From a virus, in the IMG/VR virus record IMGVR_UViG_3300010354_000654, positions 1 to 23,975 of that record: a stretch of 23,975 nt of DNA, one strand, 5' to 3'. Each line of letters starts with the position of its first letter. The stretch's first letter is position 1. Shown here piece after piece: positions 2,795 through 13,597 of this stretch. The position numbers were made by a program, and so were the translations under genes. The notes beneath the pieces are model-generated. The model searched no databases. It was not told the origin of the DNA and saw only the letters and a program-made list of their open reading frames with translations.

Positions 2795-2813
2795 TTAATA
2801 ATTAATGGTTATT

Positions 2814-2823
2814 ACTATTTAAT
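2814..2823 (-). promoter_or_regulatory. Late-promoter-like motif ATTAAATAGT
   Basis: On the minus strand the sequence reads ATTAAATAGTAATAACC, starting 29 nt and ending 19 nt before the ATG at 2794. The 9-mer TTAAATAGT recurs before two other minus-strand late genes (8972 and 10358). It resembles the T4 late octamer TATAAATA with one base missing or changed. With a start site about 10 nt downstream, the leader would be very short. Confidence 0.4.
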
Positions 2824-6926: not shown

Positions 6927-8760
6927 AGGCAATTGCATTTTTATCCGCAATCTCTTTTGTTATTCTAGCATCTTCCGCCTTAGTTCCAGCACCAACATTT
7001 ATATCCGATTGATTTGCGGTTGGGGTAGCAAATGGTATATCAGCAGTGGCAGAAATCTTCTTATCGCTAACTTTACTAGCAAGTTGAGTGGGATTTGGTA
7101 GTTGACCTTGAGGAGAGTCCCCACCACCAGATTGGATAGTAAAGAAACTATTTAAAGGAATGTCAGGTTTTAAATCACACCCCAGAAGATCTAATTTAAA
7201 ACTAGTGAAATTAAGAGCAGCAGATATGCTTCCAGTAATAGCACCCAGCAGTCCAGACATATTTGTAAACCCACCGATCGAATCTAGTAAACCCTCAATA
7301 TCAGCAAGTTCACCGAGCATATCATCCATAAATTCTTCAACCGCACCAAGTATGTTATCATTTTCTTGCTGCATTTGTGGTAGTGCAGTAGATAAAACAT
7401 CAGCAACTAATTGCTCTACAGAGCATACAAAAACTACAGGCGTGTTTCCTGTGACAGTATCATTATCAATTTTTGGATCCTTAGATGGAGTTGCTTTTGC
7501 AAAAGCCTCATCTAGTACTGACTGAATCAATCCACATAATTGATTAGCAAGTTTGTTATATAAACAAGTCAGTGTATCAGTAATAAACTCTCTTATATCA
7601 AGAAACTTATATCTATCATTTGGAAACATCAGTTCAACTAAAGGTGCCATTGCTTTATTAATCTGATCAAGAACATACTGAAATATTTGATCAAGAACGA
7701 CTTTCATATATTTTGCAATTTCACATGCAGCATTTGCTATGACTCTTTGTATCTCACGAATGACGCTAGAAACTGCATCAATATAACTCCTAATTAACTG
7801 AAGATACTTGTCTATTTCTTTCATCAAGTTTTCAAGTTCTATTTGAATTCCTTTCAGAGCAGAAGCAATTGGGTCAAGAGCCTGAGGTACTTGTCTCTTC
7901 AAACAATAAAGTTCATTTCTCTTTACATCAGCGGCAGTTTGTAAATGTACGGAGTTTATACCCTCATCAGCAGCACCAGGTTGAGACTGTGAAGATGGAG
8001 AGTTGGCTACTTTACATCTATTTTTAATTCCCTCGGAGACCCTCTGCATTTTAAGGTCTTCGTATTCTGGACTACCCCTTCTAAGACCAAGTGTTTGAGC
8101 TTCTTGAATAGCAGCTTGTTGGTCTTTAAGTTGCTCAGATGTAAGACTTATATCTGGTCTAAGACCATACTTATTAACAGCAACCCCAGGAGGAGGAGAT
8201 GCACACTCCTTACCTTGAGATGCGCTCTTTGGTTTTGAAACAACTAGTTTATTATCTGGAACTTTTGGTGCTGCCGATCCAGTTAGAGGATCTTGTCCTT
8301 GAGCATATCCGCTTGTCGCTAAACTTCCAGGACTATCATTTGTGACTCTGTTATCACCTATGGTTGATGCTAATACAGTAGAACTATTATTCGCTAGGAT
8401 ACCAGTAATGATAGGGACTTGATTGTTTGGATAATCTTGCCACTCACCATACACCATCATTCCCTGACGAATGTTTGGTGTTTGTGAAGAAGAACCTTGA
8501 CCACCACCCGCCGTTGCTGGCATTTCAAGATATGCCCAAGGAAGATCAGAAGAAGGTATCGACTCTTCTCCTTGGTCATGAACACCAATAATTCTTACCT
8601 TATATCGATATCCCCATCCTGGAGTGCTGTTTTTATCTTCAAACTTTCCACAAATAGTATTATCTCTCCAAGTGGAATCGTCAGCGATTTGACCAAACCA
8701 CTTGTTAGAACTATAACCAAAAAATCCAGGATCAAATAAACTACTTGCTTCTGCTGCCAT
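6925..8760 (-). CDS. gp5: gp5-like baseplate hub protein, OB fold, no lysozyme domain
   Basis: A 611-residue protein. Residues about 20-125 match the N-terminal OB domain of T4 gp5: WFGQIADD, then YRYKVRIIGVHDQGEESIPS, LPWAYLEMPAT and a late GMMVYGEWQDYPNNQVPIITG strand pair. In T4 this domain sits on the gp27 trimer at the tip of the tail tube. The lysozyme domain of T4 gp5 is absent. Instead there is a low-complexity linker (130-270), then a long helical region (about 275-425) rich in isoleucine, leucine and heptad-like spacing, and further helices to about 540. The gene follows the CP12-like gene with a TGATG stop/start overlap, so the two are probably coupled in translation. The gp27-like gene lies just upstream, as expected for hub partners. 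Confidence 0.8.
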   Translation of the reverse strand: MAAEASSLFDPGFFGYSSNKWFGQIADDSTWRDNTICGKFEDKNSTPGWGYRYKVRIIGVHDQGEESIPSSDLPWAYLEMPATAGGGQGSSSQTPNIRQGMMVYGEWQDYPNNQVPIITGILANNSSTVLASTIGDNRVTNDSPGSLATSGYAQGQDPLTGSAAPKVPDNKLVVSKPKSASQGKECASPPPGVAVNKYGLRPDISLTSEQLKDQQAAIQEAQTLGLRRGSPEYEDLKMQRVSEGIKNRCKVANSPSSQSQPGAADEGINSVHLQTAADVKRNELYCLKRQVPQALDPIASALKGIQIELENLMKEIDKYLQLIRSYIDAVSSVIREIQRVIANAACEIAKYMKVVLDQIFQYVLDQINKAMAPLVELMFPNDRYKFLDIREFITDTLTCLYNKLANQLCGLIQSVLDEAFAKATPSKDPKIDNDTVTGNTPVVFVCSVEQLVADVLSTALPQMQQENDNILGAVEEFMDDMLGELADIEGLLDSIGGFTNMSGLLGAITGSISAALNFTSFKLDLLGCDLKPDIPLNSFFTIQSGGGDSPQGQLPNPTQLASKVSDKKISATADIPFATPTANQSDINVGAGTKAEDARITKEIADKNAIA

Positions 8761-8972
8761 CAGTCGTCATAAACTCTACATTCTAAAGCATCTGGATTAG
8801 CATCACAATACAATTCTAAAGATGTTGGATCGTGGTCATCTCCTGGATGTCTCTCAACCCATTTTTCAAGTGCTGCCAATTCTTCTTCCGTATGGCGTCT
8901 TGCTTGAGGAGATGTTGTAGGATCATCAAGGATTTTCCTATCTTGCTCAATGTGCTTTTCTACACTATCCAT
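8760..8972 (-). CDS. cp12: CP12-like protein (Calvin cycle regulator family)
   Basis: A 70-residue protein. The C-terminus, SLELYCDANPDALECRVYDD, has the hallmark CP12 ending: two cysteines eight residues apart (YC...EC) and the RVYDD tail. In cyanobacteria this part forms a disulfide under oxidising conditions and inserts into the GAPDH active site, after which phosphoribulokinase is bound and the Calvin cycle slows. The N-terminal half (VEKHIEQDRKILDD, then RRHTEEELAALEKW) is helical and contains EEL like the CP12 core, but has no N-terminal cysteine pair and no clear AWDxVEEL motif. Phage CP12 is known in cyanophages, where it is thought to divert carbon toward the pentose phosphate pathway. 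Here it lies between gp27-like and gp5-like genes and overlaps the gp5 start by one base, so it would be made late with structural proteins. Confidence 0.8.
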   Translation of the reverse strand: MDSVEKHIEQDRKILDDPTTSPQARRHTEEELAALEKWVERHPGDDHDPTSLELYCDANPDALECRVYDD

Positions 8973-8994
8973 ATTAGTGTTTTATAATAGTATT

Positions 8995-9004
8995 ACTATT
9001 TAAC
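8995..9004 (-). promoter_or_regulatory. Late-promoter-like motif GTTAAATAGT
   Basis: The minus strand reads GTTAAATAGTAATACTATTATAAAA between the stop of the gp27-like gene and the CP12-like start, ending 22 nt before the ATG. The identical 10-mer occurs before the gp27-like gene at 10376-10385. It is likely a variant late promoter for the cp12-gp5 pair; this is inference from recurrence and position. Confidence 0.45.
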
Positions 9005-9008
9005 AAGT

Positions 9009-10358: not shown

Positions 10359-10375
10359 TATAGGATTATTTTTTT

Positions 10376-10385
10376 ACTATTTAAC
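10376..10385 (-). promoter_or_regulatory. Late-promoter-like motif GTTAAATAGT
   Basis: The same 10-mer as at 8995-9004, ending 17 nt before the ATG at 10358, in the short gap after the 1067-residue gene. Its exact recurrence at a similar distance from the start codon is the argument for a promoter. Confidence 0.4.
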
Positions 10386-10393
10386 ATTGGATA

Positions 10394-13300
10394 TCAAGTT
10401 CTATACAAACTATCATATCGAGGATCATGTGAACCACCTCTTCCACCTAATCCAGTTCCACGTCCACCTATAATCTGTGGAGGAGTTTGAACAATCTCCC
10501 TTACCTTTCTTTCTACGGTTACTATTCTATCACCACCAGATTCATATTGAGTATAATATCTAAGAACTGATGCAAGTTCTTTTTTTCTTTTTGCTTTGTT
10601 TAACCTATCAAGAAGAAGTGGAGCCATGGAATCTAATCCACGGGTTGTATCAGCATCAAAGACAAACTCAGGTCCCCTCTCCCCAAGAAGAGCGAAAGTT
10701 GGATTATTAACACGCCCACCAACAAATAGTTTTCTTGCGCCACCTGCCAACGTATTGATATATCGGGCAACTACACTATCTTTTGCTTGCATATGAACAT
10801 GCGTTCCATCTGGACCAGCAGGACTAATATTTCCACTATATCCTTGAGATCCAAGACTGGTTCTAAATGCTTGAACTTTTTGTCCCTTCCTTACTGAAAT
10901 TCTATTAAAGTGTCCAAGCTCCACCTTTCCAGAGCTAGACATAATCTCAACCCAATTTCCACCACCACCAGCTGGGCCAGCAAAAGTAACTTCACCCGTT
11001 ACTGGAGATGGGACGGGAATATTTAAAAATTTATTTCCCTTATATAGTGTAAAATCCTGAACCAATGCTCCACGTCCGTCCGAAGAACGTTGATAATCAT
11101 GATGTGGGGGAAGTTGAGAAAAATTAGTTATGGTTGCACCACTTCTAGTAACTTTATATCCACCTGGTCCAGTAGCCATTTGATTAAGATCATCGGTAAC
11201 TGGATACATCTTTCCTCTCTGTGCCTTACTAATAGCAGCTTGTAACTTTTGACGATTAACAAATTTCAATCCGCGCCATTCCGAAATAAAGTTATCTGGG
11301 TTTGCCCCCGTTCTCAATCTATATTTGATTAAAGCGATGCCTAATTTATCTTGAGTCTCAGCATCAAACTTATCATTCATAGAAACTCCCGTTTCTCCAT
11401 AACTCTTTCGATTAATCAACCCATCCATCGTGCTACCAATAATTTGATATCTTCCAGCAGCGTGTATAGGTGGATTAACATTTTTTTGATGCGCCATTAT
11501 CTCTTTAACTGTCATGCTAGTTAAAGCTCTCCTCAGTGGACCTGTACGAGAATCACCACCGTATCCAAGAACCTTATATCCATTTGCAGCTCCACCTTCA
11601 TTGTAAGCATTGTATCCAGCACCAGCACTTTCTCTACTAGAAATCATATCTAATAGTTCTTTATAGTCACCTGCATTTGTAGAATAACCACTATCATCTC
11701 CCATATCACCCGCTTCAACTGGTCCTTGTTGTTCATCACTTTCCTTTCTTGTTCCATAATTGGGAGCAAGATTCAATTGCTCATCTAACATAGATCTTAT
11801 GTTATCAAAAGTAGGGGACAAATCCTCTTCTAATTTTTTTGCAATCACGGATGTATTATCTTGGTTCATAGAAAAATCACCGTCGCTTGCAGAACCACCT
11901 TCAGCAAATCCAGCAATTCCTCTCATAACTCCAGTACTAATAGTTCTTTGCATCCAGGCAGATAATCCGCCAGCAGCATTTTCATAATCTCTACCAGTTG
12001 GTTCTTGACCCAACTTAGCTTTGTCGTAAAGAGAGAGAATGCCCCCGACACCAGGAACCATGGACACTTTATCATGGGCATCCTTCAAAAATCCTAATGG
12101 ACTTGCTGGGGTTTTTCCATCAACCTTTTCTCCCAGATTTGCCTCTGGGAATAATCTTTTAATTTTTTCTTCACCACCAATAGATTGTCCTGGTTTGATT
12201 TCTGTTTTTTGACCGACTAAAGTTCTTTTTACTGGTTGTTTTTTCAGTTTTCTTTGTGGACGACCTCCTACCTTTTTACCACCCCTCGTAATTTCTCCAC
12301 CTTCAGCTCTTCCTTGAGTGGGTTTGGATTGTGGTTTTTTTCCACCAAAGAAGGCATCATAAATTGCACCGCCAGCCATATCACCAAGAGCTCCACCAGC
12401 AAGACCACCCACAGCAGCGCCGACAAACGCCAGAGGTCCACCAGCAAGACCTATACCGCCACCCAGAGCCATTCCAACGGAACCCAGAATTCCTGCGCCT
12501 ATTGCCTTAAACGCGGCTCTACCTGGGTCTTCTCCAAGTGCCCATGATAATCCAAAGTCTATTAATGCACCAACAACAGGAATGGGAATCCTCTTAAGAA
12601 ATGGTCTTGCAATCTTGAGAAGATTTTTTGCTCCGCCTTTACCTAAAGCACTTACAAGTCCTCTTCTAGCAAATTTGGTGAGACCACTTCTCGCCATTGC
12701 CTTAGGTAATTTTTCAAGACCTTCTTGTCCAAATCTTTCAATAAACGCATCTCTTCCATATCTTTGGAAGTAGCGTTTCATTATATCTCGGTCAGCATTT
12801 AGATGAGAAAATCCTCTAGAAGGATTAGTTGCTCTTTCCCAAGATAAATTCCATCCTTGTTTTTCTTTAAAACCTCTTCTGGGATCTTTAAAATCAGAAC
12901 TTCTCCCACCACCAGTGCCACCTTGGCCACCAGTGCCACCTTGGTCAGCAGTGGCTAAGGCAACGAAAATAGCAGTCTCAATTAATTTATCAACAACACC
13001 AGTAAAGTCATCAAACTTTTTAGCAGCATCTTCACCACCAAGAGTTTTTATAAACCCTCGGGTAGCATCATAAGCGTCGTATCCTATTTTTAAAAATGTT
13101 CCCAACCCATCAACTAAACCAATAAAAAAGTCTGTTACAAATTCAGTTGCATAAGCAATTCCAGTAATAATACCAGGAAGTTTTTTTACTTGGGGAAGCA
13201 TTCTTACTGCAACATATCCAAGTAACATATTAACAAAGAAGTTTTTAATCCTATCAATTATTCCTAATTTTGGAACACTGGGGATTTTATTTTGCTTACC

Positions 13301-13597
13301 TTCCTGTTTGGTTTCTTTTTTTTCAATTTCTTTTTCTTGCTCTGCGCGTTTATTTTTTTCAGTATTCTTTCTTATTCTTTCCGTCTCTTTTACCTTTGTA
13401 AAATAAGTCGATCCTAGTAAACTTTTAATCGTAACAACACGCTCTTCTATAGAAGACAAATCTTTTTTAGAAATTGTTATTGTTTTAGTTGTAGCAACCA
13501 TCTTCTGCTGAAGACTTTGTTTCATGGCAAGTCTTCCAGCATAACGTCTGTGAATCTCAGATGGTCTGTTTAAAAGTTTACCTGAATTAATTGCCAT
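10394..13597 (-). CDS. Tape-measure-like hub protein with lysozyme-like and M23-like domains
   Basis: A 1067-residue protein. Residues 1-100 are helical and highly charged (coiled coil). Hydrophobic stretches at about 118-165 and 335-415 (glycine/alanine-rich) are typical of tape measure proteins. Residues about 644-770 look like a small muramidase or transglycosylase: MISSRESAGAGYNAYN with candidate catalytic E656, then AAGRYQIIGSTMDGLI. Residues about 830-940 resemble an M23 endopeptidase: DF at 848-849, VPSPVTGEVTFAGPAGGGGN, GHFNRISVRKGQKV and the HxH pair THVHMQ (H933, H935). The usual first zinc histidine of HxxxD appears to be Ala844, so this domain may be inactive. A tape-measure tail motif, NNPTFALLGERGPEFVF, follows at about 965. 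The start overlaps the stop of the upstream gene (TAATG). It probably opens the cell wall during infection, replacing the lysozyme missing from gp5. Confidence 0.75.
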   Translation of the reverse strand: MAINSGKLLNRPSEIHRRYAGRLAMKQSLQQKMVATTKTITISKKDLSSIEERVVTIKSLLGSTYFTKVKETERIRKNTEKNKRAEQEKEIEKKETKQEGKQNKIPSVPKLGIIDRIKNFFVNMLLGYVAVRMLPQVKKLPGIITGIAYATEFVTDFFIGLVDGLGTFLKIGYDAYDATRGFIKTLGGEDAAKKFDDFTGVVDKLIETAIFVALATADQGGTGGQGGTGGGRSSDFKDPRRGFKEKQGWNLSWERATNPSRGFSHLNADRDIMKRYFQRYGRDAFIERFGQEGLEKLPKAMARSGLTKFARRGLVSALGKGGAKNLLKIARPFLKRIPIPVVGALIDFGLSWALGEDPGRAAFKAIGAGILGSVGMALGGGIGLAGGPLAFVGAAVGGLAGGALGDMAGGAIYDAFFGGKKPQSKPTQGRAEGGEITRGGKKVGGRPQRKLKKQPVKRTLVGQKTEIKPGQSIGGEEKIKRLFPEANLGEKVDGKTPASPLGFLKDAHDKVSMVPGVGGILSLYDKAKLGQEPTGRDYENAAGGLSAWMQRTISTGVMRGIAGFAEGGSASDGDFSMNQDNTSVIAKKLEEDLSPTFDNIRSMLDEQLNLAPNYGTRKESDEQQGPVEAGDMGDDSGYSTNAGDYKELLDMISSRESAGAGYNAYNEGGAANGYKVLGYGGDSRTGPLRRALTSMTVKEIMAHQKNVNPPIHAAGRYQIIGSTMDGLINRKSYGETGVSMNDKFDAETQDKLGIALIKYRLRTGANPDNFISEWRGLKFVNRQKLQAAISKAQRGKMYPVTDDLNQMATGPGGYKVTRSGATITNFSQLPPHHDYQRSSDGRGALVQDFTLYKGNKFLNIPVPSPVTGEVTFAGPAGGGGNWVEIMSSSGKVELGHFNRISVRKGQKVQAFRTSLGSQGYSGNISPAGPDGTHVHMQAKDSVVARYINTLAGGARKLFVGGRVNNPTFALLGERGPEFVFDADTTRGLDSMAPLLLDRLNKAKRKKELASVLRYYTQYESGGDRIVTVERKVREIVQTPPQIIGGRGTGLGGRGGSHDPRYDSLYRT
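12912..12947. repeat. Two tandem 18-bp units coding for a glycine linker
   Basis: Two 18-nt units (CCAGTGCCACCTTGGCCA and the same with one change) lie head to tail. On the minus strand they code for a GGTG-Q-GGTG linker at about residues 218-230 of the 1067-residue protein, between a hydrophobic segment and a basic region. A likely slippage-prone spot that varies in length among related phages. Confidence 0.7.

Follow-up and report, generated by a model that had tools for sequence, protein, structure and literature searches.

The window analysed here is the whole of a 23,975-base virus record from IMG/VR, and its gene order matches that of a T4-like cyanomyovirus: an exonuclease, gp59, gp32, gp53, a tube cap, head genes, gp26, a gp27-like gene, cp12, gp5 and a PA14 protein. 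A megablast search with the whole window returned no near relative, the best match and nearest isolate by DNA being S-SM2, with approximately 78% identity over 8% of the window. S-SM2 shares the gp27-like/CP12/gp5/PA14 order, including the overlap of a single base, and T4-GC15 occupies the slot of the gp27-like gene in S-SM2 as well as in S-SM1. The initial annotation had placed cp12 between a gp27-like and a gp5-like gene with a one-base overlap, which agrees with the matches of the two neighbours to phrog_350 and phrog_33098 and with base 8760, common to the TGA stop of cp12 and the ATG of the gp5-like gene (TGATG; Table 1).

Table 1. Features around cp12 in the window, and further copies of the upstream element
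Feature	Position	Strand	Remarks
gp5-like baseplate hub protein, 611 aa	6925..8760	minus	phrog_33098, E 1.8e-180
cp12, 70 aa	8760..8972	minus	CP12 with only the C-terminal Cys pair (C56-C65); ATG start
Gap between gp27-like stop and cp12, 36 bp	8973..9008	minus	contains the late-promoter-like element
Late-promoter-like element TTAAATAGTAA before cp12	8993..9003	minus	TTAAATA core starts 31 nt upstream of ATG
gp27-like tail/hub protein, T4-GC15 slot, 449 aa	9009..10358	minus	phrog_350 (tail protein), E 3.2e-86
Second TTAAATAGTAA, before gp27-like gene	10374..10384	minus	exact 11-mer
Third TTAAATAGTAA, before 229-aa gene	2812..2822	minus	exact 11-mer

Two further features of the window deserve mention. 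Adjacent genes of 234 and 262 amino acids on the minus strand (594-2089) are paralogues, 42% identical over 177 amino acids, and both match phrog_17490/28536, of unknown function. Pfam gives no lysozyme domain for the gp5-like protein at E<=0.01; upstream of it, a 1067-aa protein (10394-13597) has a peptidase M23 match just under the curated cut-off as well as matches to endolysin PHROGs, and cutting of the cell wall may have passed from the former protein to the latter.

The initial annotation read the small gene as a CP12-like protein with a C-terminal cysteine pair and an RVYDD tail, and suggested an HMM search as a check. That search confirms the reading, as the Pfam family CP12 (PF02672) matches residues 2-69 of 70 (E 9.9e-13, 49.1 bits, cut-off 22.7). 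Furthermore, phrog_627 matches the protein end to end (E 8.9e-32) and the solved cyanobacterial CP12 (6gfo/3zdf) matches it by sequence (E 1.2e-7); an NCBIfam search gave no CP12 match and is uninformative. The protein ends with SLELYCDANPDALECRVYDD, and its only cysteines, C56 and C65, are arranged as C56-x3-P60-x4-C65 before the tail RVYDD, i.e. it shows the CxxxPxxxxC motif and the (R/K)xYDD-type tail by which a CP12 is recognised. The C-terminus is identical in 15 of 22 residues to the segment of Thermosynechococcus elongatus CP12 found in GAPDH complexes, and in 11 of 22 to the tail of Arabidopsis CP12-2. An AlphaFold2 model, made from 42 relatives, is a confident helical hairpin plus tail (mean pLDDT 93; helices 4-16, 22-41 and 51-58), on which the CP12 of phage S-T4 superposes with a TM-score of 0.95. 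The best PDB fold matches to this model are the CP12 entries 6gfo, 6ghl and 6ghr (probability 0.97-0.87, with marginal E-values of 0.03-0.06), and full-length CP12 on cyanobacterial GAPDH accounts for the only PDB matches above background. A homologue covering at least 80% of the query is present in 363 phage records. Compared codon by codon across relatives, cp12 has a median dN/dS of 0.165, and CP12 is therefore under purifying selection, with the residues of the GAPDH tail among the invariant ones. The number of phage records, this dN/dS value and the conserved upstream motif described below put cp12 far beyond chance; the open reading frame is a CP12 and adds one more member to the cp12 family already known from cyanophages.

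The cp12 gene has been described before in T4-like cyanophages. I gathered 162 phage loci by CP12 similarity, 156 of them with enough sequence, and in this similarity-drawn sample, whose fractions are no census, a gp27-like gene lies directly upstream of cp12 in 109 of the 156 testable loci, gp5 starts no further than 60 nt downstream in 96, and 88 loci show the two features together. Among 93 tight hub cases, cp12 overlaps gp5 in 66, by exactly one base in 21 and by four in 32. The gp27-like/cp12/gp5 slot is present in the isolates S-RSM4, S-WAM2, S-SSM7, S-CAM4, S-SM2, DSL-LC02 and DSL-LC03, and small unnamed slot genes of Bellamy and SynMITS9220M01 read as CP12, while in Syn9, S-SM1, Syn33, S-RIM2 and P-SSM4 an insertion of cpeT or tRNA genes separates cp12 from gp5. 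The location had been taken as odd, but the hub slot is the commonest cp12 position among the T4-like cyanophage loci examined, and a position 'near gp5' had been noted previously (PMC3037559); the arrangement is ordinary. On the cp12 tree, parsimony gives 15 changes between hub and non-hub positions, of which 3 are forced by well-supported branches, although an alignment of 70 columns is too short for a firm history.

The close link between cp12 and gp5 at most hub loci could also mean that CP12 has gained a role in the virion or in baseplate assembly, as had been suggested initially. In S-SM1, cp12 is located between T4-GC15 and gp5, and virions of this phage contained both neighbours (PMC3037559). 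However, CP12s that are 69-79% identical to the one in the window are encoded far from hub genes (L007, L034, L063, L078), which is unexpected for a hub protein and makes such a role unlikely. In addition, P-HM2 and P-TIM68 join gp27 directly to gp5 with no cp12 in the slot, and the residues of the GAPDH tail are among the invariant ones. CP12 is not named among the S-SM1 virion proteins in the main text of that report, though small proteins are easily missed (PMC3037559). The hub protein reading was rejected on account of the similar copies outside the hub region and the hub genes joined without cp12, and I consider a virion role very improbable.

The exact 11-mer TTAAATAGTAA occurs in the window before cp12, the gp27-like gene and the 229-aa gene and nowhere else; with one mismatch allowed there are four matches, which are not significant by themselves. 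The cyanophage late promoter is described as NATAAATA (PMC2984593), and the TTAAATA before cp12 differs from it by one mismatch and lies at promoter distance. No sigma70-like promoter was found on the minus strand in the 36-bp gap. The late-promoter-like motif reported initially is thus recovered at 9003-8993, and it is conserved among relatives. Of the 93 distinct hub-slot upstreams, 64 have the pattern [ACT]TAAATA at a distance of 25-36 nt from cp12, compared with 9.8 in dinucleotide shuffles (maximum 17); for non-hub cp12 all but one of 39 distinct upstreams, i.e. 38, have it (5.5 in shuffles, maximum 11); the non-hub loci are partly one clade, the motif nonetheless being present in several CP12 clusters. 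Within 23-38 nt, it precedes 98% of non-hub cp12 genes versus 3% of the other open reading frames at the same loci, whereas its frequency upstream of host cp12 genes is that of the background (9% vs. 8%). Judged by this motif, a late-type promoter stays with cp12 across genome positions. In many non-hub loci (L034, L051, L063, L078, L228) a small phrog_14124 gene of unknown function is found just upstream of cp12, and cp12 behind this gene has a near-perfect AAATAAATA element.

Every hub locus with a gap of at least 20 nt between gp27 and cp12 carries it, while in the motif-less hub loci the gap is at most 18 nt or cp12 overlaps gp27, so that these look like read-through operons; cp12 therefore appears either to have its own late-type promoter or to lie inside the hub operon. 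The motif is found inside gp27 in 1 of 90 cases. Where cp12 abuts gp5, it is rare inside cp12 before gp5 (5/73), and where cpeT or tRNA genes split the two, gp5 has its own motif in 14 of 15 cases, a pattern which fits cp12 and gp5 being on one late transcript. In Syn9, with gene classes that I assigned from the annotation, the motif is present at 13 of 36 structural gene starts and at 0 of 18 replication genes. Among 15 auxiliary genes of this phage only cp12 has it at the normal distance (hsp20 has one at 64 nt); psbA, psbD, talC, gnd, zwf, petE and hli have none, leaving cp12 as the sole tested carbon or photosynthesis gene with the motif. Sigma70 promoters are not enriched upstream of hub cp12 (17 vs. 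16.0 shuffled), and a dual sigma70 and late promoter was rejected for these loci; upstream of non-hub cp12 some enrichment is observed (13/39 vs. 6.3).

Since the motif is conserved and specific in the hub, non-hub and Syn9 counts, late expression of cp12 is plausible. The initial annotation had proposed that cp12 is made late, in step with the hub proteins; late expression with gp5 is in keeping with the motif, but the cp12 of P-HM2, the one measured case, which has CATAAATA at the matching distance of 31 nt, was placed in the middle cluster, highly expressed (PMC5082946). For middle expression of the RB49 type, early and late promoters that overlap have been proposed (PMC2984593), so the motif alone is no proof of late timing. 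CP12 could keep its function unchanged while its gene, like other metabolic genes, is expressed in the middle phase; the late motif would then either prolong expression or be paired with an early promoter, an arrangement proposed for psbA, whose upstream regions in cyanomyoviruses hold both sigma70 and Gp55 sites (PMC5931967). Carbon diversion for dNTPs would also be most useful during replication. However, the hub-slot upstreams lack sigma70 enrichment and the gap in the window contains no such site, the tightly overlapping cp12 copies resemble members of the hub operon, and P-HM2 is not a hub-slot case, its cp12 adjoining talC. I regard middle-phase expression as a serious but rather unlikely alternative. 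A further proposal, made tentatively and with somewhat less than an even chance of being correct, is that cyanophage cp12, unlike talC, zwf and gnd, is a late gene driven by gp55 and takes its late promoter along from slot to slot, in which case inhibition of the Calvin cycle would peak at packaging and assembly, or act in two phases, and not chiefly during dNTP synthesis, where the current model puts it.

An N-terminal cysteine pair is absent from the window protein, in agreement with the initial annotation, C56 and C65 being the sole cysteines. The claim that this pair had been lost does not hold. An N-terminal cysteine is found in 0 of 97 phage CP12s of a first set, and in the larger set of 162 in two entries only, one with a single cysteine and one with 13, which is taken to be a misextended start; yet the pair is also absent from all 80 CP12s of the genome collection, approximately 74 of which are of host type (Prochlorococcus, Cyanobium, Synechococcus) and approximately 6 of which look like phage contigs binned elsewhere. 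Because host CP12s are without the pair too, a phage-specific loss was rejected. The window protein fits the C-only form, with a C-terminal pair, no N-terminal pair, approximately 70 amino acids and no CBS domain, a class described in picocyanobacteria and cyanophages (PMC3906501). The core AWD_VEEL is missing as well: 0 of 97 phage CP12s fit a relaxed pattern, and the window reads RRHTEEEL, with RRH in place of AWD and the EEL part alone remaining. Some bins assigned to Euryarchaeota, Nonlabens, Rhodopirellula and Anaerolineales (L099-L104, L113) also contain phage-type cp12 genes, most likely on misbinned cyanophage contigs. In Cyanobium-type genomes (L250-L256) there is a further CP12-like gene, less closely related, whose product ends with CDLNPSD(V/I)NC(R/L)VYDD and whose translation shows no N-terminal pair.

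From the missing pair it had been proposed that the phage protein binds GAPDH only and is unable to recruit phosphoribulokinase (PRK). The absence of both the pair and the AWD core would be consistent with this, and reduced PRK affinity is possible given the RRH of the window. However, host CP12s of the same type are likewise without the pair, and the CP12s of S. elongatus and Galdieria, which also lack it, are reported to form the ternary complex with GAPDH and PRK all the same (PMC9406205), so GAPDH-only action is not implied. Binding restricted to GAPDH thus seems to me somewhat doubtful.

As a whole, the locus is best, and rather probably, explained as a standard cyanophage CP12 in its usual slot, a GAPDH-binding inhibitor of the Calvin cycle that is transcribed late with gp5. 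Most likely, to judge from the conserved tail, its disulfide-capable C-terminus would dock in the active-site cleft of the host GAPDH, Gap2; the docked protein would slow the Calvin cycle, so that NADPH and sugar phosphates stay available to the phage. The gene itself would most likely be transcribed from its own gp55-type late promoter, joined to gp5 in a single unit by the TGATG overlap, possibly with additional read-through from gp27. The replacement of the core AWD by RRH is a point against this explanation.

In the textbook view, phage CP12 allows cyanophages to switch off CO2 fixation in marine phototrophs that are abundant. What remains noteworthy is the late-type promoter that appears to accompany cp12 wherever it is placed, which hints at a later switch-on than in the current model. 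Should most phages turn out to keep cp12 under late control, the accepted account, derived from P-HM2, that CP12 feeds dNTP synthesis in mid-infection would have to be reconsidered.

Canonical CP12s, such as those of T. elongatus and Arabidopsis (CP12-2), share the GAPDH-inserting tail (15/22 and 11/22) and the helical-hairpin layout with the window protein, but they have the N-terminal cysteine pair and the complete AWD_VEEL core. The picocyanobacterial CP12s of Prochlorococcus, Cyanobium and Synechococcus resemble it in having the C-terminal pair only, a length of approximately 72 amino acids and a tail of the form HDP..LE.(F/Y)CD.NP, but they are 43-53% identical to it, and their genes have the late-promoter element upstream at background level. 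Also close is the cyanophage auxiliary metabolic gene cp12 (T4-GC 337; S-RSM4 SRSM4_226, S-SM2 SSM2_015, Syn9 gp17, P-HM2 PHM2_227), of the same Pfam family, with 70-75 amino acids, a single C-terminal cysteine pair and mostly the same gp27-like/cp12/gp5 slot, although Syn9, S-SM1 and S-RIM2 have cpeT or tRNA genes before gp5, an insert that the window does not have. Protein identity to the window is mostly approximately 50-68% for these isolate cyanophage CP12s, and the closest relatives, at 87%, are encoded on uncultured IMG/VR contigs.
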